The translations under genes were made by a program, and so were the position numbers. Shown in pieces: positions 12,695 through 39,885 of a DNA stretch of 42,995 nucleotides (within the stretch, counting starts at the first letter, position 1; each line of letters begins with the position of its first letter). Source of the stretch: Rhodoblastus acidophilus (lineage in GTDB: Bacteria; Pseudomonadota; Alphaproteobacteria; Rhizobiales; Beijerinckiaceae); assembly GCF_025961575.1 (NCBI RefSeq), contig NZ_JAOQNX010000039.1, forward strand, positions 1-42,995. The letters run 5' to 3'. A model generated the notes under the pieces. That model searched no databases. It was not told where the DNA came from and was given only the letters and a program-made list of their open reading frames with translations.

Positions 12695-14038
12695 ATGACC
12701 ACCCATGTGCTGATGCCCGCCCTCTCGCCCGACATCAAACAAGGAAAACTCGTCCGCTGGCTGAAGCGCGAGGGCGAGTTCATCGAGGCCGGCGATATTT
12801 TGGCCGAAGTCGAGACGGAAAAGGCGACGATCGAGGTCGAAGCCGCGGAATCCGGCGTGCTCGCGCGCATCCTCGCGCCCGAAGGGGAAAATGTCGCGGT
12901 CAACGCGCCCATCGCCGCCATCCAGGCGGGGCCGGAGGTTTTCGCACGCGAGCCTGAGCCCGAACCGGAGCCCGAGCCCGAGCCCACGCCGCTCGCTCCA
13001 AAACCTGTGGCGCCGCCAAAACCAGCCGCCACACCAAAACCGGCGCCGGAGGCCGCGCCGACCCGCATCACGGTGCGCGAGGCCCTGCGGCAGGCGCTGG
13101 CCGAGGAAATGCGCCGCGATTCCCGCGTGTTTCTGCTCGGCGAGGACATCGGCCAGAATCAGGGCGTGTTCAAGGTCACCCAGGGCCTGTTGCAGGAGTT
13201 CGGCCCGCGGCGGGTGGTGGACGCCCCCATTGTCGAGCACGCCTTCGCCGGGCTGGGCGTGGGCGCGGCTTTCGCCGGCCTGCGGCCGGTAATCGAGTTC
13301 ATGACCTTCAATTTCGCCATGCAGGCGCTGGACCATATCGTCAATTCGGCGGCCAAGACCCTGTATATGTCGGGCGGCGCGCTGAGCTGCCCGATCGTGT
13401 TTCGTGGGCCCAATGGGGCGCGGTCGCGGGCGGGCGCGCAGCATGCGCAGGATTTTTCCGCCTGGTTCGCCCATGTGCCCGGCCTGAAAGTGGTCGCGCC
13501 CTATACCGCCGCGGACGCCAAGGGTTTGCTCAAGGCCGCGATCCGCGACCCCAATCCGGTGGTTGTCCTGGAACACGAACAGCTCTACGGCGAATCCTTC
13601 GACGCGCCCGCCGAAGAGGACGCGCTGGTCGAGATCGGCGTCGCCGCCATCGCGCGGCCCGGGAGCGACGCCACTGTCGTCTCCTTCTCGCGCGGCGTCG
13701 CCCTGGCCTTGAGGGCGGCGGAACTCTTGGCGGGGCAGGGCGTCAATGTCGAGGTGATCGACTTGCGCACATTGCGGCCCCTTGACATGGACTGCGTGAT
13801 CGCTTCGGTGGCGAGGACTGGACGCTGCGTGGTGGTCGAGGAAGGCTGGCCGCAGGGCGGCGTCGGCGCCGAGATTTCGGCGCGGCTGATGGAGGACGCC
13901 TTCGACCGGCTGCGCGCGCCGGTGCTGCGGGTCACGGCCAAGGATGTTCCGGCGCCCTATGCCGCCAATCTGGAGAAACTGGCTTTGCCGCAGGTCGGCG
14001 ACGTCGTGGCGGCGCTGAAATCAGTCCTTGGTCTCTAA
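12695..14038 (+). CDS. pdhB: Pyruvate dehydrogenase E1 beta subunit with N-terminal lipoyl domain
   Basis: This 447-residue protein has a biotinyl/lipoyl domain at residues 1-80 with lipoylated Lys43 in EVETEKATIEVE. A flexible Glu-Pro and Lys-Pro linker follows at about 88-125. The E1 beta transketolase-like domain then begins at about 128. Catalytic features are GEDIGQNQGVFKVTQGL and the His in GAQHAQDFSAWF. Lipoyl-tagged E1 beta is typical of alphaproteobacterial pdhB. In most relatives pdhC (E2) follows directly, but here a DUF5076 gene follows, so E2 and E3 must be encoded elsewhere. Confidence 0.92.
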   Translation: MTTHVLMPALSPDIKQGKLVRWLKREGEFIEAGDILAEVETEKATIEVEAAESGVLARILAPEGENVAVNAPIAAIQAGPEVFAREPEPEPEPEPEPTPLAPKPVAPPKPAATPKPAPEAAPTRITVREALRQALAEEMRRDSRVFLLGEDIGQNQGVFKVTQGLLQEFGPRRVVDAPIVEHAFAGLGVGAAFAGLRPVIEFMTFNFAMQALDHIVNSAAKTLYMSGGALSCPIVFRGPNGARSRAGAQHAQDFSAWFAHVPGLKVVAPYTAADAKGLLKAAIRDPNPVVVLEHEQLYGESFDAPAEEDALVEIGVAAIARPGSDATVVSFSRGVALALRAAELLAGQGVNVEVIDLRTLRPLDMDCVIASVARTGRCVVVEEGWPQGGVGAEISARLMEDAFDRLRAPVLRVTAKDVPAPYAANLEKLALPQVGDVVAALKSVLGL

Positions 14039-23856: not shown

Positions 23857-24324
23857 CTAATTGTCGTCGGCGACCCGCACGATCACGTCGACCCCGACAA
23901 TGCGCTTGCCCTTGGGCGCCTTCAGCTGCAACTGGTGGGTGACGTCCTGCTCCATGTCGAACAGCACGGAGCGGTCTTCGTCGTAATAATGGCAATGCGA
24001 CCCGGTCTTGGTGTCGTACCAGACTTTTGAGCCGTAGAGCGCGATCTCGCGCACCAGGCCGGCGTCGGCGAACTGATGCAACGTGTTGTAGACGGTCGCC
24101 CGCGACAGCGGCATTTTCAGCGCCTGCGCCTCGGCGAACACCTGTTCGGCGGTGACATGGCGGTCGCCGGCGACAAACAGCAGGCTGGCGATGCTCACCC
24201 TTTGCCGCGTCGGGCGCAAGTCGACGGCGCGCAGTTTGTCGCGAACCAGCCGCGCCAGAGCGCCATTGACCCAGTCATAGGTGGGCCGGGCCGGCTTGCC
24301 GAGGGTTGAAGTCGATTGCGCCAT
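23857..24324 (-). CDS. irr: Irr-type Fur family regulator, copy 1
   Basis: This 155-residue Fur-family protein has a winged helix containing LRPTRQRVSIASLLFVAGDR, HVTAEQVFAEAQALKMPLSR and ATVYNTLHQFADAGLV. The dimerisation part has KVWYDTKTGSHCHYYDEDRS and VGVDVIVRVADDN. LRPTRQR, the size and the HxHYY segment place it with Irr, the heme-sensing iron regulator of Hyphomicrobiales. The triple His of well-studied Irr proteins is HCH here, and there is no N-terminal GCPWHD heme motif. The ATG at 24324 is preferred over 24357. An Irr-box-like palindrome lies 45 bases upstream, suggesting autoregulation. Confidence 0.88.
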   Translation of the reverse strand: MAQSTSTLGKPARPTYDWVNGALARLVRDKLRAVDLRPTRQRVSIASLLFVAGDRHVTAEQVFAEAQALKMPLSRATVYNTLHQFADAGLVREIALYGSKVWYDTKTGSHCHYYDEDRSVLFDMEQDVTHQLQLKAPKGKRIVGVDVIVRVADDN

Positions 24325-24368: not shown

Positions 24369-24385
24369 CTTAGAAAGACTCTAAG
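24369..24385. promoter_or_regulatory. Irr-box (ICE-like) palindrome upstream of irr copy 1
   Basis: CTTAGAAAGACTCTAAG. Against the Irr/ICE pattern TTTAGAA-N3-TTCTAAA it matches 11 of 14 fixed positions. It lies 45 bases before the irr start, where a repressor or activator would act on the promoter. Confidence 0.7.
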
Positions 24386-27817: not shown

Positions 27818-28422
27818 AGCTCGACCCATTTTATCTCATCGTCGATCACGTCGGTTGGCTGCGCCGCCTGCTCCCCTGCGGCGTCAAACTGGCGCAACTC
27901 AGGGTCAAGCAAGCCGAAGACCTGCGCGAGCAGATCGCGGAAGCTCGCGATCTCTGCAAGACCCATGGCGCGCAACTGATCGTCAACGACCATTGGCGCC
28001 TCGCGCTGGACCTCGGCTGCGATTTTGTTCACCTCGGCCAAGAAGATCTTTTGAGCGCCGACCTCAATGCGATCAAGGCGGGAGGCCTGAAACTCGGAAT
28101 CTCCACCCACGACGAGGCCGAGTTGCAAAAGGCGCTCGACGCCGAGCCGGATTATGTGGCGCTCGGCCCAATTTTCCCGACCATCCTGAAAAAAATGCCC
28201 TGGGCGCCCCAAGGGTTCGGCAAAATCGCGCTCTGGCGGCAAAAAATCGGCGCGCTGCCACTGGTCGCCATCGGCGGCCTGACGCCCGAGCGCGCGCAGG
28301 AGAGCTTTAAGGCCGGCGCCGACAGTGCGGCTGTTGTCACCGACATTTCTCTGAACCCAGACCCGGAGGCGCGCTGTCGGGAATGGATTGCGGCGACCCG
28401 CCGCCCCATATCAGCGGCATGA
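27814..28422 (+). CDS. thiE: Thiamine-phosphate synthase ThiE
   Basis: This 202-residue TIM-barrel enzyme joins HMP pyrophosphate and thiazole phosphate. Seen are [30 protein letters not shown] with the substrate Asn-Asp, [24 protein letters not shown] and [11 protein letters not shown]. The phosphate-loop C terminus is slightly changed, reading [10 protein letters not shown]. It is coupled at both ends: ATGA with thiG and ATGA with the copper ATPase gene. thiC and thiD are not in the operon. Confidence 0.92.
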
Positions 28423-30848
28423 CCCTGCACACCGCCACACTCGAAATCGAAGGCATGACCTGCGGCGCCTGCGTCGCCCATGTCGAAAAGGCCCTCAAAT
28501 CCGCGCCGGGCGTGCGCGACGCCCGCGTCAACCTCGCCACCGAACGCGCCGAACTCGACCTCGCCCCCGAAGCGAACCTCGCGGCGCTCGCCCAAAGGGT
28601 GGAAGAAGAAGGCTATCCTGCCCGCCGCCAGACGTTTGAGATCGGCGTCGGCGGCATGAGTTGCGGCGCCTGTGTCGCCCATGTCGAAAAGGCGCTGAAA
28701 AAAGTCCCCGGCGTGCTCTCGGCCACGGCCAATCTCGCCAACAACCGCGCCACCGTCGAGGTTTTGGCGGGCGCGGTCGATTACGCCACGCTGGCCGCCG
28801 CCATCCGCGCCGAGGATTACGAGCCGAGCCCGGTCGAAAACGCGGAACCGCTGGAAACCCGCGAAAAGGAAGCGGCTCGCCTCAAGCGCGATTTTTGGCT
28901 CGCGGCGGCGGGCGCGGTCCCGGTGGTCGCGCTCGAAATGGGCGCGCACATGTCCCACGACTTCGCCAGCGCCCCCCACGCCACCCTGGGCCACCAAACT
29001 CCGATGTTTTTGGCGGCGGCCCTGACCACCTTCGTGCTGGCGGGTCCGGGCCGGCGCTTTTTCAAGCTGGGTTTCGGCTCGCTCCGGCGCGGCGCCCCCG
29101 ACATGAACGCGCTGGTGGCGCTGGGGGCGGGCGCGGCCTACCTCTATTCGCTGCTCGCCACCTTCGCCCCAAACATCCTGCCGGAGGGCGCGCGCCACTC
29201 CTATTTCGAATCGGCGGCCGCCATCGTCGCCTTCATCCTGCTGGGCCGCTGGCTGGAGGCGCGGGCCAAAGGCCGCGCCGCCCAGGCCATAGCGGCGCTC
29301 GGCGCCTTGCAGCCGAAAATCGCCCACGTCCGCCGCGAGACCGGCGCCATCGACTTGCCCGTCGAAGAAGTCCGCGTCGGCGATCTCGTCGAGATCAGGC
29401 CGGGCGAGCCGATCCCGGTGGACGGCGTGGTGGTCGAAGGCGCGAGCCACGTCGACGAAGCCCTCATGACCGGCGAAAGCCTGCCGGTCGCCAAAAAGCC
29501 GGGCGATCCCCTGATCGGCGGCGCGGTCAATTCCGCCGGTTTTCTGCTGATGCGGGCGGAAAAAGTCGGCGCCGGCACGGCGCTGGCCGGAATTATCCGG
29601 CTTGTCGAGGGCGCCCAAGGCGCGAAACTGCCGATCCAGGCGCTCGCCGACAAGGTCACGGCCATTTTCGTCCCCACGGTGTTGGGAATCGCCGCCCTCA
29701 CCTTTGCGCTCTGGATGATTTTCGGACCAGAACCCGCCTTGTCCCTCGCCCTGGTCAACGCCGTGAGCGTGCTGATCATCGCCTGTCCCTGCGCCATGGG
29801 ATTGGCCACGCCGGCGGCGCTGATGACCGGCACCGGGCGCGGCGCGCAACTGGGAATCCTCTTCCGCCGCGGCGACGCGCTGCAGACGCTGGCGGGCGTC
29901 AAAACCGTGGCGTTCGACAAAACCGGCACGCTCACCGAGGGAAAACCGCAGCTCACCGCCCTGCGCGCCGAGAATTTGAGCGATGATGAGGCTCTGGCGC
30001 TGGCGGCGGCGGTCGAATCCCGTTCCGAGCATCCGCTCGCCCGCGCGCTGGTCGAGGCGGCCCATGCGCGGGGGCTCGCCACGCCGGACGTCGAAAATTT
30101 CGCCTACCAGCCAGGCCTGGGCGTCGCCGCCACTGTCGGCGGCAAAAAAATCGCGGTCGGTTCCGGCGAGTTCATGGCGGCGCTGTCCGCGCATTCGCCC
30201 GCGCTCGAAGCCGAAGCCGAAGTTTTGGCGGGGCAGGGGGCGAGCTGCTTCTTCCTCGCGGTGGACGGCCGCGCGACCGCCGTTTTCGCCTTTTCCGATC
30301 CGCTGCGCCCCAGCTCGGCGCAGGCGGTGGCGACGCTGAAGAAATTGGGCGTCGATGTCGCCATGCTCACCGGCGACCGCGCCGCCACGGCGAACGCCAT
30401 TGCCGCGCAAGCTGGGGTGAGCGAAGTTTTTGCCGGCCTGAAACCCGAGGGCAAGGTCGAGATTTTGCAAAACTTGAGCCTGCGCGGCCCCGTCGCCTTC
30501 GCCGGCGACGGCGTGAACGACGCGCCGGCGCTGGCGGCGGCCGATGTCGGCCTCGCCATGGGCACGGGCTCGGAAATCGCGCGCGCCAGCGCCGAAGTGG
30601 TTTTGGTGGGCGCCGATCCCGTCAAGGCGGCGCAGGCTGTGGCGCTGTCGCGTGCGACGCTGCGCAATATCAAGCAAAACCTGTTTTGGGCCTTCGGCTA
30701 CAATGTGGTCCTGGTTCCCGTGGCGATGGGCGCGCTCTATCCTTGGAACGGAACGCTGCTCAATCCGGCGCTGGGCGCGGCGGCGATGGCCTGTTCGAGC
30801 CTTTTCGTGCTCGCCAACGCGCTCCGCTTGAGGAGCTTCGCGTCGTGA
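28419..30848 (+). CDS. copA: Copper-exporting P1B-type ATPase
   Basis: This 809-residue protein has two N-terminal HMA domains with GMTCGAC (residues 12-18) and GMSCGAC (79-85), each able to bind Cu(I). Eight membrane helices follow, with the copper motif CPCAMG in helix 6, preceded by AVSVLIIA. The P domain has DKTGTLTEG, the nucleotide domain has SEHPLARALVEAAH, and the hinge has GDGVNDAPALAAADVG. It exports Cu(I) across the inner membrane. The ATG at 28419 gives a 4-base overlap with thiE; an earlier ATG at 28383 is less likely. Coupling to a TPP-riboswitch operon is unusual. Confidence 0.95.
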   Translation: MTLHTATLEIEGMTCGACVAHVEKALKSAPGVRDARVNLATERAELDLAPEANLAALAQRVEEEGYPARRQTFEIGVGGMSCGACVAHVEKALKKVPGVLSATANLANNRATVEVLAGAVDYATLAAAIRAEDYEPSPVENAEPLETREKEAARLKRDFWLAAAGAVPVVALEMGAHMSHDFASAPHATLGHQTPMFLAAALTTFVLAGPGRRFFKLGFGSLRRGAPDMNALVALGAGAAYLYSLLATFAPNILPEGARHSYFESAAAIVAFILLGRWLEARAKGRAAQAIAALGALQPKIAHVRRETGAIDLPVEEVRVGDLVEIRPGEPIPVDGVVVEGASHVDEALMTGESLPVAKKPGDPLIGGAVNSAGFLLMRAEKVGAGTALAGIIRLVEGAQGAKLPIQALADKVTAIFVPTVLGIAALTFALWMIFGPEPALSLALVNAVSVLIIACPCAMGLATPAALMTGTGRGAQLGILFRRGDALQTLAGVKTVAFDKTGTLTEGKPQLTALRAENLSDDEALALAAAVESRSEHPLARALVEAAHARGLATPDVENFAYQPGLGVAATVGGKKIAVGSGEFMAALSAHSPALEAEAEVLAGQGASCFFLAVDGRATAVFAFSDPLRPSSAQAVATLKKLGVDVAMLTGDRAATANAIAAQAGVSEVFAGLKPEGKVEILQNLSLRGPVAFAGDGVNDAPALAAADVGLAMGTGSEIARASAEVVLVGADPVKAAQAVALSRATLRNIKQNLFWAFGYNVVLVPVAMGALYPWNGTLLNPALGAAAMACSSLFVLANALRLRSFAS

Positions 30849-31038
30849 CGGCGCGGTGAAGGTTTAGTTAATAAAAGATTAAACTTGACGTGAGCGGTTC
30901 GGTTTTGTTCTTAGAAAATGACGCCAGGACTACAGCGCAACCGAGTTATCAGACTTATCCACAGGCCGGAGTTGACGTGGTTTCTCCAAATGTTCTTTCG
31001 GGAAACTTCGGCGCGATACGGCAGAGGAGGCAGGGGCA

Positions 31039-31245
31039 ATGAGCGAAACGATTCTCCATGTCGAGGGCATGAGCTGCGGCAAATGCGCGGCGCGGGTCAC
31101 CAAGGCGATTCAGGCGCAGGCGCCGGAGGCGCAGGTGCAGGTCGAGCTGGAGACCAAGCGGGTGACGATCGCGCCCTCCGTCGCCAATCCGCAAGCGCTG
31201 GCGCAAGCCGTCACCGAAGCGGGCTATCCCGCTCGGCAGGCGTAG
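31039..31245 (+). CDS. copZ: CopZ-like copper chaperone (HMA domain)
   Basis: This 68-residue protein is a single ferredoxin-like HMA domain with the metal site GMSCGKCAARVTKAI and a C-terminal TEAGYPARQA. It should carry Cu(I) to the CopA HMA domains. GAGGCAGGGGCA precedes the ATG. It lies 190 bases after copA on the same strand and 13 bases from the converging P-type ATPase at 31259. Confidence 0.9.
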   Translation: MSETILHVEGMSCGKCAARVTKAIQAQAPEAQVQVELETKRVTIAPSVANPQALAQAVTEAGYPARQA

Positions 31246-31258
31246 AGCAAATCTCGAA

Positions 31259-33355
31259 TCAGGCGCGGCGCTTGTCCGCCTTGGGCGCGGAGCCTCGGAA
31301 CGCGTTGAGCAGAATGCCGATGGTCGCGCCATTGTGCAGCACGGCGGTCGCGACCGGCGACAGCAGGCCCAAGGCGGCGAAACCCAAAATGGCGGTGTTG
31401 AGCCCGACCGTCAGCTTGTAATTCGTGTCGATCCGCGCCATCGCCGCATTGGCGAGCGCGCGGGCGTCGGCGATTCGGGCGAGCGAATCCTCCAGCAGCA
31501 CCACATCTGCGGTGAGCCGGGCGATATCTGCGCCTTTCTGCATGGCGACGCCGACATGCGCCCCGGCGAGCGCCGGCGCGTCATTGATGCCGTCGCCGAC
31601 GAAGGCGATCTTCGCCCCCTTGGCGTTGAGCTCGGCGACGATCCCGGCCTTGTCCTCCGGCGTGAGTTCGGCGTGATAGCCGTCGAGCCCGAGTTTTTCG
31701 GCGAGCTCCGCGGCGCGGTCGTGATGGTCGCCGCTCAGCATCAGAATGCGTTTGACGCCCGCGCGCCGCAGGCGCGCGATCGTCTCGGCGGCGGTGGCGC
31801 GTAACGAATCCTTCAGCGCCAGTATGCCGAGCAGGCGCCCGCCAAAACCGATGAACAGCAGCGTCTTGCCTTCGCGATATAGGCGGTCGACCACTTCGGT
31901 CTGCGCCGAGAGGTCGATGCCCTCATGGTCCTCGACGAAATGCCTGGAGCCCACCACCACGCGCTGGCCGTTGACTTCGCTCGCCACGCCATGCGCGACG
32001 ATGAACTGGACTTCGGTGTGGTCGAAATGGTGGTTCTTGTCGGTCGCCTGCGCGGCATTGACCACCGCCATGGCCAGCGGATGAAAATAATGCTCCTCGA
32101 CCGAAGCGGCGAGGCAGATCAGGTCTTCGGCGCTATAGGCGGTGTCGAAGGCGATGGAATCCGTCACCTCCAGATGGCCGGTGGTGAGCGTGCCGGTCTT
32201 GTCGAAAATGAATGTGTCGGCCTGCGCCAGCCGCTCCAGCGCGGTCGCGCCCTTGACCAGAATTCCGGCCTGTCCCGCATTGTACATGGCCGATTTGAAC
32301 GCTACCGGCGTCGCCAGTTTTAGCGCGCAGGAATAGTCGGCTTGAAGCACCGAGGCGGCGGAGCGCCAGTCGCCGGTCAGCACGGCGGAGACGCCGGCGA
32401 GTTTGAGAACCGTCGGCACCAGCCGGTCGGCAAGGCGCGCGGCGTCGAGCTGGGCCTCGCTTTTCGCCGTCAGCGATTGCTCGACATAATCGGCGATGCG
32501 CGCGGCGGCGGTATGACGTCCCACCTGTTCGGCGTAAATGGTGAGCCGGCCATCCTCCATGCTGGTGCCGGACAGGACCTTTGCGCCGCGCGTCTTGATC
32601 ACCGAGACGCTTTCGCCGGTCATCGCCGCTTCGTTGACGACGCCCTCTCCGGACATCACCGTGCCGTCCACGGGAATCACCGCGCCGGCGCCGACCACGA
32701 CGGACTCGCCCACGGCGACCTCGCCGGTGGGAATTTGAACCTCCTCGCCGTCGCGCAACACCCAGATGAGGTCGCTGCTCGGGCGCAACAAATGTTTGAG
32801 CAGATCGTCGGAGCGCCGCGCGATCGTGCCTTCCAGATATTCGCCGAGCGCCAGCATGAATGTGGTGGCGTTGGCGGCGAGGAAATCGGAGCGCGCCAGC
32901 GAGATCGACACCGCCATCGCCTCCAGCACATGGCTGGTGACGCCGTTCTCGCGGTAATCGGCCACGCCCTCGCGCAGCATCGGCAGCGCCGCGGCGAGGC
33001 TGACCGGAAGCCGCGCCGGCATGGGCAGAACATTGGCGCCGAGCAGCACGGCGAGCGACGAGGCCAAAGCCCCGGCGCCATCGTCGTCGCGCGGTTTTGT
33101 TTTGACCTCGTCCCAGCGCATCTCGGCCAAAGCCCCGACAATGGTCATGACGGAGGTGCGCTGGGTGTCGAAGACGATGGTGAGCGACGCCGCGCGGGCG
33201 TTGACCCTGGCCGAGGTCACGCCGTCGATCAGCCGCGCCATGCCTTCGAGCGCGGCCGCGTCGGGCGCGTCGAGATTGCGGCGATAGCGCAGGCGCACGC
33301 GCCCGGGCAGCCGGTGAACGACTTTCAGCGTGCGCAGCCAGGGCTGAGCCGTCAT
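31259..33355 (-). CDS. fezB: P1B-type ATPase, FezB-like (ferrosome-associated)
   Basis: This 698-residue protein lacks CxxC HMA domains. Instead an Arg-rich N-terminal segment LPGRVRLRYRR (16-26) lies in an HMA_2-like fold. P-type ATPase hallmarks are MTGES (245-249), DKTGT with phosphorylated Asp385, EEHYFHPLA and GDGINDAPALAG. The ion-site helix reads DYSCALKLATP (340-350), so CPC is replaced by SCA, as in the P1B-6 group. That group includes FezB, which forms iron-filled ferrosomes. The gene ends a run of small membrane-protein genes and starts with ATGA overlap. Iron(II) as substrate is inferred; another transition metal is possible. Confidence 0.82.
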   Translation of the reverse strand: MTAQPWLRTLKVVHRLPGRVRLRYRRNLDAPDAAALEGMARLIDGVTSARVNARAASLTIVFDTQRTSVMTIVGALAEMRWDEVKTKPRDDDGAGALASSLAVLLGANVLPMPARLPVSLAAALPMLREGVADYRENGVTSHVLEAMAVSISLARSDFLAANATTFMLALGEYLEGTIARRSDDLLKHLLRPSSDLIWVLRDGEEVQIPTGEVAVGESVVVGAGAVIPVDGTVMSGEGVVNEAAMTGESVSVIKTRGAKVLSGTSMEDGRLTIYAEQVGRHTAAARIADYVEQSLTAKSEAQLDAARLADRLVPTVLKLAGVSAVLTGDWRSAASVLQADYSCALKLATPVAFKSAMYNAGQAGILVKGATALERLAQADTFIFDKTGTLTTGHLEVTDSIAFDTAYSAEDLICLAASVEEHYFHPLAMAVVNAAQATDKNHHFDHTEVQFIVAHGVASEVNGQRVVVGSRHFVEDHEGIDLSAQTEVVDRLYREGKTLLFIGFGGRLLGILALKDSLRATAAETIARLRRAGVKRILMLSGDHHDRAAELAEKLGLDGYHAELTPEDKAGIVAELNAKGAKIAFVGDGINDAPALAGAHVGVAMQKGADIARLTADVVLLEDSLARIADARALANAAMARIDTNYKLTVGLNTAILGFAALGLLSPVATAVLHNGATIGILLNAFRGSAPKADKRRA

Positions 33356-33684
33356 GCCGCGGCGCTCTGTTCCGCCTCGACTTCCGCCGCCAGATCGGCC
33401 ATCTGCTCCTTCATTTCGGCGAAACCGCCCATCACGCTGGAATAGGCCTGGATCGCGCTCTTGAACATTTTGCCGCGGATCTGCTCGTCGGACAGGACAT
33501 AGGCCGCGATCCCGCCAACCGCGAGGCCGAGCAGGAATTGTTCGTTGCGGCCCTTGGGCAGCAGGTTGCTGAGGCTGGCGAACACGCCCTGGTTGGCCGG
33601 CGGCGCCATATTGGCCTGACCCGCCAGCAGGCGCTGCAGTTGACGGCGCTTCAGGCCTTTTCCCTTTTTCTTCTTCTTAGCCAA
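33352..33684 (-). CDS. Small basic membrane-associated protein in the fez-like cluster
   Basis: This protein is about 110 residues long. The N terminus is strongly basic (AKKKKKGKGLKRRQLQRLL). One hydrophobic stretch follows (FLLGLAVGGIAAYVLSD, about residues 53-69), then an amphipathic helix ending in EMKEQMADLAAEVEAEQ. TTG at 33684 is chosen because AGGAGG lies 7 bases before it; an ATG at 33705 would add seven residues (MRRRRPK). It overlaps the previous gene by 8 bases and fezB by ATGA. The basic tail could contact an anionic cargo such as phosphate-iron mineral, but that is speculation. Confidence 0.75.
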   Translation of the reverse strand: MAKKKKKGKGLKRRQLQRLLAGQANMAPPANQGVFASLSNLLPKGRNEQFLLGLAVGGIAAYVLSDEQIRGKMFKSAIQAYSSVMGGFAEMKEQMADLAAEVEAEQSAAA

Positions 33685-34003
33685 TTTCGGCCTCCTTCGG
33701 CGCATCGTGGGTTTCTGTGGTGAGCAAGGTTTCGACCGCCATCACGCCCGCGACGCCTCCGGCGATCGCCAGCGCGGCGCTCAGGTAATCCTGGCGGCGC
33801 AGGCTGTCGGCGGTGGCGACGCCGGCGGCGAGAGCGAAGCCGCCCTGCAACGCGAGTTGCGCCACCTTGCGGTTGGGCGACGCGCCGGCGGCGCGATTCT
33901 GGATCGCGGCCAGCAGGCCGGTGGCGACCAGACCGCGGATGAAATTGTTGGAGAGCTCCGCCGGCGCGAGCGGTTGCGGCGTTCTTACCTTAAGCTTTTT
34001 CAT
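33677..34003 (-). CDS. Hydrophobic small protein in the fez-like cluster
   Basis: This 108-residue protein has a short polar N terminus (KKLKVRTPQPLAPAEL). Three hydrophobic segments follow: GLVATGLLAAIQN, LALQGGFALAAGVATAD and YLSAALAIAGGVAGVMAVE. They are probably membrane-embedded helices. No named family is recognised. It starts inside the end of the preceding gene (14-base overlap). Small hydrophobic proteins beside a P1B-6 ATPase are the typical context of ferrosome clusters. Confidence 0.75.
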   Translation of the reverse strand: MKKLKVRTPQPLAPAELSNNFIRGLVATGLLAAIQNRAAGASPNRKVAQLALQGGFALAAGVATADSLRRQDYLSAALAIAGGVAGVMAVETLLTTETHDAPKEAEIG

Positions 34004-34298
34004 GTTTCGCGCCTTCCTGGGCCGCGGCGGGGTCATCTTTGGCCGGCGCGGCGTCCGGCTGGTCGGTCGCCGCCTCAGCCTGTCCGCCCAGCTTGGCGCG
34101 CAAGCTGGCGGAAGATTTTTCGACCGCGCTCAGGCCGGACACCGTGACGTCGCGCAGCTCCTCGCCGGCTTTGTCGAATCCGCTGCGCGCCTTGTGCGCC
34201 AGCGCCGTCAGCTTGGCGGGCGCCTTGGATGTCTTCAGCATGCGCACCCCGAGGGCGCCGGCCGCTATGCCGGCCACAAAAGTCAAAACGGGCAGCAT
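33990..34298 (-). CDS. Membrane-anchored amphipathic-helix protein in the fez-like cluster
   Basis: This 102-residue protein has one N-terminal membrane helix (LPVLTFVAGIAAGALGVRML). A long amphipathic helix follows (about residues 25-70, with KARSGFDKAGEELRDVTVSG), then a low-complexity Ala-Asp-Pro tail ending GAKHEKA. This phasin-like or YtxH-like layout would suit a membrane or particle surface. The family is not recognised. It lies 21 bases after the HMA_2-like gene and overlaps the next gene. Confidence 0.75.
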   Translation of the reverse strand: MLPVLTFVAGIAAGALGVRMLKTSKAPAKLTALAHKARSGFDKAGEELRDVTVSGLSAVEKSSASLRAKLGGQAEAATDQPDAAPAKDDPAAAQEGAKHEKA

Positions 34299-34319
34299 GA
34301 CGATCTCCTTTCAGTCAAA

Positions 34320-34637
34320 TCAGGCGTGGGCGGCGTCGAGCAGACGGCGCCGCAGAATTTCGCTCTCGGGCGTGGCCTCGCCCGAGAGAAAGCCGCTCCA
34401 GGCCGAAGGCGGGATCGCGCGGGCGTCATATTCGATGGTGCAGGACCGGGCCAAGGGATTGACGCCGACGGATCGTATGCCCTCGACCCCCCCGAGCGCC
34501 TGACCGAATTTTTTGGCCTCGGCGATCAGCTCATGGGGAAGGTTTTCCCGCATTTTCAGCCGGATGCGGCCGGGAATGTGGTGGGCGACGCTGAGCTGGC
34601 GGACCAGACCGAGCAGCGGGGAAGCGGTGGAGGTCAT
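34320..34637 (-). CDS. HMA_2-like protein with an Arg-rich motif (FezA/FezC-like)
   Basis: This 105-residue protein has a single ferredoxin-like domain without CxxC. The motif AHHIPGRIRLKMR lies near residues 18-30, the same PGR[IV]RL signature as at the N terminus of the ATPase at 31259. The rest, GGVEGIRSVGVNPLARSCTI then EYD, resembles the second half of HMA domains. AGGAG lies 6 bases before the ATG at 34637. It is 8 bases behind the previous gene. It is a likely partner or membrane adaptor of the FezB-like ATPase; which fez letter it corresponds to is uncertain. Confidence 0.78.
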   Translation of the reverse strand: MTSTASPLLGLVRQLSVAHHIPGRIRLKMRENLPHELIAEAKKFGQALGGVEGIRSVGVNPLARSCTIEYDARAIPPSAWSGFLSGEATPESEILRRRLLDAAHA

Positions 34638-34645
34638 GGCGGCTC

Positions 34646-35125
34646 CTATCGCAGCACGTGCCGCCGGTGGACGACGATATGGATCAGCGTGAGCGCAAGG
34701 GACAGAACGCCCGCCTGCGCGTGAAGCTTGCGGCTGGATTTCAAGGCGGCGAGCGACAAAGCCATGCTGGCGACCGCGCCGATCTTGGCGGCGCGGTTCA
34801 GCTCCCATTTGGCGCGCCGGCGACGCCGCGACCCATGCGGGGCAGGGGGCGGCGCCGTGGCGGCGGTCTCGGACCCGGGCTCGGCGGGCGAGGCTTCGGC
34901 GGGGCCCAGCAAGGCCGCGACCTCGGCGCGGATGCGCGCCTCCAGCTCGGCGTCCGTCGGATCGAAGCGCAACAGCATCGATCCGACCGCCGGATTGCTT
35001 TCGATGTCCGCAAATTCCCGCAAGCTGTCCAGAACCCGCGCATGGATGTCGCGATTCCGCAGCGCGGGATGACGGAGCCTGATCCGGCCGGGCAGGGCGG
35101 ATGCAAACGGGTTCAAAGGACTCAT
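34646..35125 (-). CDS. HMA_2-like protein with C-terminal membrane helices (FezA/FezC-like)
   Basis: This 159-residue protein has the motif ALPGRIRLRHPALR at about residues 9-22 in an HMA_2-like domain, with PAVGSMLLRFDP as the later strand. An Ala-Pro and Arg-rich linker follows, then two hydrophobic segments (AAKIGAVASMALSLAALKSS; GVLSLALTLIHIVV). ATG 35125 is preferred; a GTG at 35170 would add 15 residues. It is the first gene of the cluster. An Irr-box-like site lies 108 bases before its start, and an 11-base repeat array starts 134 bases before it. Confidence 0.78.
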   Translation of the reverse strand: MSPLNPFASALPGRIRLRHPALRNRDIHARVLDSLREFADIESNPAVGSMLLRFDPTDAELEARIRAEVAALLGPAEASPAEPGSETAATAPPPAPHGSRRRRRAKWELNRAAKIGAVASMALSLAALKSSRKLHAQAGVLSLALTLIHIVVHRRHVLR

Positions 35126-35232: not shown

Positions 35233-35249
35233 TTTAGACTCCTTCCAAC
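35233..35249. promoter_or_regulatory. Weak Irr-box-like site upstream of the fez-like cluster
   Basis: TTTAGACTCCTTCCAAC matches 11 of the 14 fixed positions of TTTAGAA-N3-TTCTAAA. It lies 108 bases before the first gene of the cluster and next to an 11-base repeat array. The right half-site is imperfect. Support comes mainly from its position and from two better matches before the irr genes. Confidence 0.45.
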
Positions 35250-35258
35250 ATGTCTCAT

Positions 35259-35313
35259 GTCACTTGAACGTCACTTGGATGTCACCTGACGGTTACTTGA
35301 GCGTCGCTTTAAC
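35259..35313. repeat. Five phased 11-base direct repeats
   Basis: Five head-to-tail units lie without gaps: GTCACTTGAAC, GTCACTTGGAT, GTCACCTGACG, GTTACTTGAGC and GTCGCTTTAAC (consensus GTCACTTGANN). A possible further unit, GTCAAATTGGC, lies in phase at 35325-35335. The period equals about one helical turn, so all copies face the same side of the DNA. The stretch is non-coding, between the small gene at 35345 and the first fez-like gene, as expected of a cooperative operator array. Confidence 0.72.
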
Positions 35314-35344
35314 GGAGCGTGAGCGTCAAATTGGCGGCCCAAGA

Positions 35345-35617
35345 TCACTCCGCCGGCATGGACAGAAACGCCCGCTCCGCTTCGGGCGCCCGCCGCAGCC
35401 GCGCGATCGTGCTTTCGCATCGCGCCCGGATCGCAGCCGGCGCCACGAAGTCCAAAAACTGCGCGCTGAGCGCGGCGAAGGCGAGATCGACCAGCAGCGC
35501 GTCGCCGGCGCTGTCCAGGTAACGAAATGGCGTGATCGCCTCGGCGATCAGGGCGTCGATTCTGTGTCGTTCACGGGCGATGTCGCACATATTGGCCTCG
35601 TCGGGTTGAAAGCTCAT
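35345..35617 (-). CDS. Hypothetical 90-residue protein coupled to irr copy 2
   Basis: This 90-residue, mostly helical soluble protein has MCDIARERHRIDALIAEAIT, LLVDLAFAALSAQFLDF and a final RAPEAERAFLSMPAE. It has no cysteine motif beyond two scattered Cys (MCDIA, RARCES). The family is not recognised. Its ATG overlaps the irr stop as ATGA, so it is translated with irr and may act with it, for example in iron or heme sensing, but nothing in the sequence proves that. Confidence 0.7.
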   Translation of the reverse strand: MSFQPDEANMCDIARERHRIDALIAEAITPFRYLDSAGDALLVDLAFAALSAQFLDFVAPAAIRARCESTIARLRRAPEAERAFLSMPAE

Positions 35618-36087
35618 TGGAGGGCGTCGTCGTCGCAGAGGCGAACGATCACGTCGACGCCGACGACGCGGTAGCCGGGCGGCGGCGCGATCTTGAGATT
35701 CTTGGTCAAATCCTCGGGAATGTCGGAGAGCCGCTGCCGGTTTTCATCGAAATAATGGCTGTGGGAGCCGACATTGGTGTCGTACCAGACCTTGGAGCCG
35801 AACACCGCGATCTCCCGGATCAGTCCGGCGGCGACGAACTGCCGCAATGTGTTGTAGACCGTGGCGAGCGACAGCGGCATTTCGAGCGCCTGCGCCTCGC
35901 GGTAAAGCTGCTCCGCGGTGACATGGCGGTCGCCGGCGACGAACAGCAGCCCGGCGAGGCTGACGCGCTGCCGGCTGGGACGCAGGCGCGCCGCCTGCAG
36001 GCGCTGCCGGATCATCCGCGCCAGCGGGCCGCCACGCCAGTCATAGGCGATGCGCGCCCGGGATTTCTCGCCGCCGAAGGTCTCCAT
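35614..36087 (-). CDS. irr: Irr-type Fur family regulator, copy 2
   Basis: This 157-residue protein has a winged helix with LRPSRQRVSLAGLLFVAGDR, HVTAEQLYREAQALEMPLSL and ATVYNTLRQFVAAGLI. The sensing part has KVWYDTNVGSHSHYFDENRQ and VVGVDVIVRLCDDD. It is a close paralogue of the protein at 23857-24324. Again the triple His of classic Irr is broken (HSH) and no GCPWHD motif is present. A near-perfect Irr box lies 79 bases upstream. Its position beside the fez-like cluster suggests it controls iron storage. Confidence 0.88.
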   Translation of the reverse strand: METFGGEKSRARIAYDWRGGPLARMIRQRLQAARLRPSRQRVSLAGLLFVAGDRHVTAEQLYREAQALEMPLSLATVYNTLRQFVAAGLIREIAVFGSKVWYDTNVGSHSHYFDENRQRLSDIPEDLTKNLKIAPPPGYRVVGVDVIVRLCDDDALQ

Positions 36088-36165: not shown

Positions 36166-36182
36166 TTTTGAATTATTCTAAA
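36166..36182. promoter_or_regulatory. Strong Irr box (ICE) upstream of irr copy 2
   Basis: TTTTGAATTATTCTAAA matches 13 of 14 fixed positions of TTTAGAA-N3-TTCTAAA. It lies 79 bases before the irr start and 14 bases from the hlyD stop, so the divergently oriented neighbour cannot be its target. This is the best Irr site in the window. Confidence 0.8.
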
Positions 36183-36196
36183 TAGGGGCGACGCGC

Positions 36197-37677
36197 CTAT
36201 CGCTCGCGCATCGCCTCCGAAGCCGTCTCCACCAGCGGCGAAAAGATATATTCCAGGATGCGCCGGCGTCCCGTGGCGATTTCGACGCTCACCGCCATGC
36301 CGGGGGTCAGCGGCGTGGACACGCCGTCGACATCCATCGCCGCGCGCCCCGGCGCGAGCGTGGCCGGAAACACCAGATTCTGGGTGCGTTGCCCGCCGCC
36401 AAAGGTCTTTTCCTTGTTCAGCCGGGCCGCGTCGCCCTCGCGTTGCTGCGCCTCGGGCTCCGGAATGGCGTCGCTGGACACATGGGTCACTTTCGCCGGC
36501 AGCGTGCCGAATCGTGTGAACGGGAACGCCTCGACCTTGACCACCGCGCTCTGGCCCGGCTTGACGAAGCCGACATCGCGGTTGAGCAGGTAGCATTCGA
36601 TTTCGAGCGCGGCGTCTTCGGGCACGATGCGCATCAATTCGTCGCCGCCGCCGACCACCTGGCCGATCGTGTTCACGGTCAGGCCATAGACGATGCCGTT
36701 GATCGGCGCGGTCAGGGTCATGCGCTGCGATTTCAGCCGCGCCTTCGCCAGTTTCTCCCGCCAGTCGTCGGCCTGCCGCTGCGCCTCCGACATTTTCTGC
36801 GCATTGTCGGCGATGAAGCTGGTGACGGCCTTGTCGCGGTCGAGATGAAGGACGGCGATGGCCGCGGCCGCGGAATCGCGTTGGCCCTTCTGCATGGCGA
36901 GCTGGGTCTTGTGATAATCCAGGCTCTCCTGCGCGTCGATCAGATTGGCCTTGGCGCCGGACCCGGACTTCACCAGGGATGAGCGCATGTCGACGCGCTG
37001 CTGCAAGGTCGCGATCAATTCGGTTTGCGCCGCCACCGTGCCATCGGCGCGGTCGCGTTCGATCTCCTTTTGCCGAATCTGGGCGCTGTATCCCTCAACG
37101 GCGACCTGCAACTGGCGGAGGTCGCTGGCGAGCACCCGGGTTTCGCGGTCGCGAATTTGTTGCGGCAAATCGGCGTCGAACGGGATCGCCGGCGCCGGCG
37201 TGAATTCGCGCTTTTCCGCTGATTCCACGGAAATGCGGCGGCGCAGCGCCTCCGCCCGGTAGGCGTCATAGGCGCCGCGCGCGTCGGCTTCCTCGGCGCG
37301 CGCCTCGCCGGGGTCGAACTCCACCAGCACGTCGCCGGCGACCACATGGCGGCCGTTTTCGACGCGAATGCCGACGACCCGTCCTGGCTCCAGCGGCTGA
37401 ATCACCTTTACGCGGCCCGCCGGCTGAATCTTGCCCTGGGCCACGGCGATGATGTCGAGCCGGCCGAACCAGCTCCAGGCCAGCGCCACCAGGACCAGCG
37501 CCGCGATGATCAGGATCAGCGCCATGCGCACCGGCGAGGGCGGGGATTCCAGGATTTCCAGATCGGCGGGCAGAAATTCCCGATCGGAGAGCGGCGCGCG
37601 ATCGGAGCGTTTCGCCCGGCCGAAAAGATTTGGCGCAGCGGCCCGCAGCTTTTCCAAGGCGGCGTTCATGGCGGCGT

Positions 37678-37681
<4 letters not shown>
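36197..37681 (-). CDS. Type I secretion membrane fusion protein (HlyD family)
   Basis: This 494-residue protein has a cytoplasmic N terminus of about 50 residues and one membrane helix (MALILIIAALVLVALAWSWF). A barrel/lipoyl half follows (GRVKVIQPLEPGRVVGIRVE, HVVAGDVLVEFD), then long coiled coils at about 130-320 and a second half-motif (LTAPINGIVYGLTVNTIGQV). The C-terminal PGMAVSVEIATGRRRILEYI is the HlyD signature. It bridges the ABC transporter to an outer-membrane TolC-type channel. ATGA overlap with the transporter gene. A TolC gene and a recognisable RTX substrate are absent from the window. Confidence 0.93.

Positions 37682-39885
<2,204 letters not shown>

Follow-up and report, generated by a model that had tools for sequence, protein, structure and literature searches.

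A probable six-gene ferrosome (fez) operon beside irr in the purple phototroph Rhodoblastus acidophilus

The DNA studied here, called the window below, is the whole of contig NZ_JAOQNX010000039.1 (42,995 nucleotides) of the alphaproteobacterium Rhodoblastus acidophilus. The genome (4.9 Mb) carries two reaction-centre genes, and the host is therefore a purple phototroph. The open reading frames of the window include a row of six genes that runs along the minus strand (35125 to 31259) and ends with a gene for a P-type ATPase (Table 1). We judge it very probable that this row is a fez operon of the Rhodopseudomonas/Azospirillum type that works through the formation of ferrosomes, the recently described lipid-bounded iron stores. 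An earlier description made from the letters of the DNA alone (the sequence-only reading) had placed five tightly coupled small genes before the ATPase gene, and this is borne out: all six frames are open, and the junctions from gene 1 to gene 6 measure +8, +21, -14, -8 and -4 nt. The fifth small gene most likely begins at 33684 rather than at 33705, and its product of 110 residues then opens with MAKKKKK. Upstream of the operon, and codirectional with it, lies irr, with a frame of 90 codons between the two. In alphaproteobacteria, Irr regulates iron metabolism.

Table 1. Genes and sites of the putative fez operon and of the irr genes in the window (aa, amino acids; ICE, iron control element; TM, transmembrane)
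Feature	Position	Strand	Length	Remarks
Gene 1: HMA2 domain and C-terminal two-helix DUF4405-like (putatively FezC-like) membrane domain	34646..35125	-	159 aa	
Gene 2: HMA2-domain protein	34320..34637	-	105 aa	Pfam HMA_2 34.1 bits; homologues in many fez loci
Gene 3: probable FezA-like protein with a glycine-rich TM helix at its N-terminus and a charged tail	33990..34298	-	102 aa	
Gene 4: three-helix membrane protein, glycine/alanine-rich	33677..34003	-	108 aa	
Gene 5: YtxH-like protein with a single TM helix between a basic N-terminus and an acidic amphipathic tail	33352..33684	-	110 aa	
Gene 6: FezB-type P1B ATPase, DYSCALK ion site, N-terminal HMA2-like segment	31259..33355	-	698 aa	
ICE-like site, 108 bp before gene 1	35233..35249	.		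pattern scan, 3 mismatches
11-bp tandem array, directly upstream of the ICE-like site at 35233..35249	35259..35314	.		5.1 copies of GTCACTTGAAC
Neighbouring irr gene (iron response regulator)	35614..36087	-	157 aa	NCBIfam IrrA 160.7 bits, cut-off 150
ICE-like site before the neighbouring irr gene	36166..36182	.		pattern scan, 1 mismatch
Second irr-type gene	23857-24324		155 aa	7.8e-62 to the neighbouring irr; own ICE-like site at 24369-24385

The identification begins with the ATPase. As the sequence-only reading held, the protein has an N-terminal LPGRVRLRYRR and an SCALK ion site and lacks CxxC; the ion site reads DYSCALK, lies before DKTGT and stands where copper and zinc pumps have CPC. 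The P1B pumps for copper, zinc, cadmium or cobalt have a CPC, SPC, TPC or CPH ion site together with CxxC domains, and SCA at this place is presumably a mark of the P1B-6 ATPases. The general heavy-metal P-type model of NCBIfam (TIGR01525) matches gene 6 at 473.9 bits, and Pfam HMA_2 matches its N-terminal HMA2-like segment at 23.4 bits, under the cut-off of 30. When FezB was searched against PDB, the best matches among 60 of 120 matches listed were copper, zinc and cadmium pumps, followed by more distant P-type ATPases.

In a phylogenetic tree of 73 rows, a branch with support 100/99 separates all 43 ATPases that carry the motif D[YF]xCxx[KR] from 30 other P-type ATPases, among them the CopA of the window. 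The 43 rows were selected by this motif, and the result is thus that the motif marks one lineage. Gene 6 lies inside this single FezB-type clade, where it groups with the ATPases of two congeners (100/100). Beyond the genus, its sister group is formed by genomes G908 and G950 (95/93), and these five together with Azospirillum and G296 make up a set of eight (100/100). The tree's link to characterised FezB runs through a Rhodopseudomonas relative, the characterised sequences themselves not being among the rows. From the scan of named genomes we took the best 80 of 591 stretches; the 10 with the motif were all used, and 26 of the other 70 served as outgroup. R. palustris is not among these best 80, which, given that cut, carries no weight. 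One outgroup row, L150 from the host's own genome, sits on a very long branch, and its placement is unsure. L008, L010, L013 and L119 (in-frame stop) are absent from the tree, and the first three also lie outside the set of 44 loci over which families were compared by profile.

The neighbourhood of the ATPase gene is conserved along with it. Five other genomes of the genus were searched, and two of them (loci L120 and L121) have the same six genes in the same order, as do two other phototrophs (L134 and L135) and two Azospirillum plasmids (L142 and L143); because this order recurs we regard the cluster as beyond chance. To the two congeners the ATPase is 91% and 88% identical and gene 5 is 91% identical in both; in both, FeoAB lies one gene from fez. 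FeoB is found in 10 of the 44 loci (E below 1e-90). At E 1e-120, with the host's own genome counted, the ATPase is found in 13 of 297 genomes of the order and 8 of 398 of the phylum, and at the same threshold in 8 of 198 genomes of the family of G035. On plasmids, 13 records carry it at E 1e-80, 8 of them Azospirillum; four of the 13 were examined in wider context.

The closest published counterpart is the operon RPA2333-2338 of Rhodopseudomonas palustris, which likewise has six genes. According to passages of PMC12016538, a six-gene fez set makes ferrosomes in strain CGA009, and in passages of PMC6879726 rpa2333-2338 are implicated in metal ion transport and lowered in low light, with half of the lowered genes concerned with iron. 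A literature search found no paper naming RPA2332, RPA2339 or RPA2340. Three genomes of one genus, G908, G950 and G961, all with reaction-centre genes, offer a route to CGA009: structures 6z5r and 6z5s in PDB were made from CGA009 strains, as parts of PMC7806223 state, and a PufL stretch of G950 is identical to their L chain at 246 of 246 positions, that of G908 at 243 of 246, while G961 differs at 4. G950, a near relative of CGA009, has the same six families as the window in the same order, an ATPase 75% identical and irr nearby; G908 shares these families and their order, and in both genomes a divergent irr-type gene of the FUR family lies upstream (about 3e-34 to the window's Irr). By way of this nearest relative, the sequences strongly suggest that the fez class of CGA009 is that of the window. 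Whereas irr is divergent in L134 and L135, in the window it is codirectional and one small frame away from fez.

Three further kinds of cluster were compared. The Azospirillum brasilense plasmid clusters (L142, L143) match the window in their six genes and gene order, and the Azospirillum ATPases are 69-77% identical to gene 6 over 81-99% of the query, but they are plasmid-borne, and neither locus has an Irr match or an ICE-like site. A second class, class B, comprises Rhodobacter capsulatus (L026), a Cereibacter plasmid (L145), the gammaproteobacterial-type loci L115 and L116, and others. It shares with the window the FezB-type ATPase, HMA2 proteins and homologues of gene 5, as well as homologues of gene 4 in 15 loci, but its gene order is another, it has a single-TM 'FWKGA' protein and no gene 3 homologue at E 1e-3, and its small proteins often carry N-terminal stretches rich in His, Pro and Gly. 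The fezABC-type cluster of Desulfovibrionaceae (Mailhella, L036) and the fezAB-type clusters of Clostridia (L027, L029 and others) also have a FezB-type ATPase; in them the protein at the FezA position resembles gene 3, and in Mailhella the gene at the FezC position resembles gene 1. Unlike the window, these clusters have two or three such genes only, and genes 4 and 5 were not found in them at E 1e-3. The gene before FezB in Clostridia and Mailhella is, judging by its position, presumably fezA, and on the same footing these loci are taken as probable counterparts of the characterised ones of Desulfovibrio magneticus and Clostridioides difficile.

Genes 1 and 2 had been described in the sequence-only reading as a pair of HMA_2-like proteins. 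PGRIRL is indeed present in both (across the HMA2-like parts the common motif is PGR[IV]RL), and gene 2 exceeds the Pfam HMA_2 cut-off of 30 bits, with gene 1 below it at 25.3 bits; what that description left out is the DUF4405/FezC-like tail of gene 1. In profile comparisons with the HMA2 family of class B, gene 2 scores 98.2% and gene 1 96.2%, the latter chiefly over its N-terminal half. Gene 1 further matches the gene after FezB in Mailhella, at the FezC position, with a profile E of 4.9e-16 over both halves, and His135 and His149 in its tail are invariant in 7 of 7 sequences. FezC binds haem b and resembles DUF4405, according to parts of PMC10979944. From these comparisons gene 1 can be partly assigned, as a putatively FezC-like protein with an HMA2 domain and a DUF4405-like tail. 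Structure prediction, which the sequence-only reading had proposed for the small proteins, gave models for genes 1 and 4: the model of gene 1 (five sequences, mean pLDDT 70.6) has a ferredoxin-like part followed by two long helices, with the HMA part confident and the helical hairpin of moderate confidence, and gene 4 yields a low-confidence model of three helices (mean pLDDT 56).

The remaining small proteins also have probable counterparts in other fez clusters. Gene 3 aligns with the FezA-type family at an hhalign probability of 88.8%, over 34 columns only, with reversed decoys reaching at most 13.8%. Against the class B families it reaches at most 16.6%, with no clear partner, and a link to the FWKGA family of that class was dropped at a profile value of 1.4%. 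Pfam gives gene 3 no match at E 1, DUF6110 included, which three scanned FezA-type genes do match. On the profile evidence, gene 3 is probably FezA-like. When the gene 5 families are pooled and trimmed (the trimming rule removed 6 of 24 rows), it also reaches 68.9% against them, and gene 5 resembles the FezA-type family weakly (29.5 to 52.3%); gene 3, gene 5 and FezA may all be remotely related. Gene 5 has a homologue in 34 of the 44 loci by profile search, and reaches 98.8% by hhalign against the YtxH-like family of class B and only E 0.26 against Pfam YtxH. Gene 4 reaches 89.7% by hhalign against a glycine-rich class B family. We partly assign genes 4 and 5 as conserved fez membrane proteins. 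The sequence-only reading had suggested that three of the small proteins might be new shell or cargo components. The six-gene set published for R. palustris CGA009 (in passages of PMC12016538) speaks against such novelty, as does the profile likeness between gene 3 and the FezA-type protein that Mailhella and Clostridia carry; the small proteins are ordinary members of a six-gene operon, and the locus adds an example of a known ferrosome system. Small genes precede the FezB-type ATPase gene in seven clostridial loci (L027, L029, L030, L031, L032, L033, L048) and in Mailhella (L036); three of these eight were scanned (L029, L048, L036) and belong to Pfam DUF6110, a family that likely has the FezA role.

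The operon stands in an iron-regulator context. We scanned with consensus patterns for both the ICE and the FNR/FixK site. The window has three ICE-like sites with at most three mismatches, where 0.13 would be expected; the reversed pattern gives none. From left to right they lie 45 bp before the more distant irr-type gene, 108 bp before fez gene 1 and 79 bp before the neighbouring irr; the 300-bp intervals before these three starts make up 2.1% of the sequence. Genome-wide, at most one mismatch gives 6 sites and the reversed pattern 1. Of the six, four are found upstream of bfd-bfr, of a cupredoxin-FTR1 permease pair, of a flavodoxin gene and of irr, one is by an MntP-like gene, and one stands before a gene that has no Pfam match. 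In the two congeners (L120, L121) each of the 5 ICE-like sites precedes fez, feoA or a flavodoxin-like gene. The class B loci L123 and L124, of the same family, have a site with two mismatches about 150 and about 50 bp before their first fez gene, and sites with at most three mismatches also occur in L108, L111, L028, L115 and L116. The single perfect ICE-like site of the genome, L152 (G000:C3:81446-81462), lies before a gene for a 301-aa protein without Pfam match at E 0.001, and by eye L120 has a similar stretch to L152 beside its fez operon.

Exact FNR/FixK matches lie before fez in both congeners (8915-8928 in L120 and 10927-10940 in L121, the only one in 20 kb in each), twice each in the fez-irr gap of L134 (10150, 10269) and L135 (10266, 10384), and at 13533 and 14158 in L139, before feoA and before irr; none of these loci has any other exact match. 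Unlike L134 and L135, the window has none near fez, even at one mismatch, and L142 has none. Directly upstream of the fez ICE-like site, the 11-bp unit GTCACTTGAAC is repeated head to tail: its two-unit pattern, expected 0.01 times, was found 3 times, all within the array. The array could possibly bind a regulator; by eye, none is seen upstream in L120, L121 or L135.

Phylogeny, gene order and iron-linked context together make the identification of a fez cluster well supported, and three other explanations have to be weighed against them. The ATPase might be a plasma-membrane exporter of Fe2+ for detoxification, with the small proteins as its accessory subunits and without an organelle being made. 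Proteins of the FezB type are P1B pumps, some of their loci lie near iron genes, and sequence cannot tell the direction of a pump; yet simple export has no need of five extra small proteins, the operon keeps company with iron regulators, and a six-gene fez set is published as ferrosome-making in R. palustris (in passages of PMC12016538), all of which leaves export unlikely. We give still less credence to an ordinary resistance operon for copper, zinc, cadmium or cobalt, of the kind of the adjoining CopA/CopZ genes, which converge on fez at 28383-31245. The TIGR01525 match would suit it, but the ion site is not CPC, SPC or TPC, CxxC is missing, the clade stands apart from the 30 other P-type ATPases, CopA among them, and the surroundings are irr and ICE-like sites here and FeoAB in the congeners. 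An ordinary copper or zinc pump was rejected on tree, ion site and context. It is also quite improbable that the cluster is decayed, or was acquired laterally, and has no function in its host: it is patchy, present at E 1e-120 in 3 of 6 same-genus genomes with the host's own included, and plasmid-borne in Azospirillum, but the six frames are open and tightly coupled, and identity to the congeners is high for both the ATPase and gene 5.

Several observations weigh against the ferrosome reading, or against parts of it. That patchiness extends to the family sample, where 6 of 149 genomes, the host's own among them, have the ATPase at the same threshold. The link to CGA009 is indirect, and G961, of the same genus as G908 and G950, carries near irr a six-gene fez cluster of another class. 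As to regulation, the fez ICE-like site is weak, with three mismatches; at two mismatches the genome-wide count (8) equals that of the reversed control (8), with no excess; and in 21 of 31 sequences scanned, with L134, L135, L139, L142 and L143 among them, no ICE-like site turns up at three mismatches. As to gene 1, its DUF4405 match has an E of 0.053 and that of its best relative 0.0029, all DUF4405 matches lying under the Pfam cut-off, the Mailhella gene at the FezC position does not match DUF4405 at E 1, and a Foldseek search started from the gene 1 model gave nothing that reached E 0.001.

If the ferrosome reading holds, iron shortage would have Irr act at the ICE-like site and switch the operon on; low oxygen would probably be a further input, as it is in the relatives. 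The products of gene 3 (FezA-like), gene 5 (YtxH-like) and gene 4 would shape or line a membrane vesicle, into whose lumen FezB would pump ferrous iron. The gene 1 protein may pass electrons across the vesicle membrane by way of a b-type haem held by its conserved histidines, which would allow iron to be stored as an oxidised mineral and later released, and the HMA2 domains of genes 1, 2 and 6 could serve in docking or in handing on iron. That the host forms such organelles is expected by analogy with its relatives. The locus would add an anoxygenic phototroph outside Rhodopseudomonas to the carriers of ferrosomes, it links the operon to Irr, and it makes the assignments of gene 3 as FezA-like and gene 1 as FezC-like testable. 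Our literature search returned no paper naming both ferrosomes and Irr, or ferrosome and Rhodoblastus, though the two founding ferrosome papers were outside its reach, and this is hence no proof of novelty.

A more general idea, which we advance tentatively and think somewhat less probable than not, is that ferrosomes are built from at least two interchangeable six-gene kits. The kits would share FezB, the HMA2 proteins and gene 5, with genes 3 and 1 of one swapped for the 'FWKGA' protein and His/Pro-rich tails in the other; near irr, either kit would be possible in Rhodopseudomonas. The vesicle-shaping and redox parts would then be exchangeable modules, and size or mineral might vary from one organelle to another.

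Among the loci compared, L139 (6327-14711, genome G961) shows FeoAB and irr after a class B cluster of six genes, so that one genus has two fez classes near irr. N-terminal stretches rich in His, Pro, Gly and Tyr occur in the class B small proteins of L110, L114, L115, L116 and L118, and are possibly metal-binding or condensate-forming. Two of the 44 loci have a ferritin-like gene (DUF2202/rubrerythrin) within a fez-like cluster, L028 (3910-4656, a gammaproteobacterial metagenome-assembled genome) and L144 (4246-4929, an Arcobacter plasmid); the match is over the Pfam cut-off in L028 and not in L144, and the product is a possible ferroxidase partner. Elsewhere in the window, the CopA-type ATPase and CopZ-type chaperone genes occupy the plus strand downstream of fez. 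Upstream of irr, on the minus strand at 36197-39885, lie genes for a type I secretion membrane fusion protein and an ABC transporter, whose best plasmid match is in Beijerinckia indica; for the right-hand 25 kb of the window as a whole, the best plasmid match is a Beijerinckia secretion locus that covers 7%.

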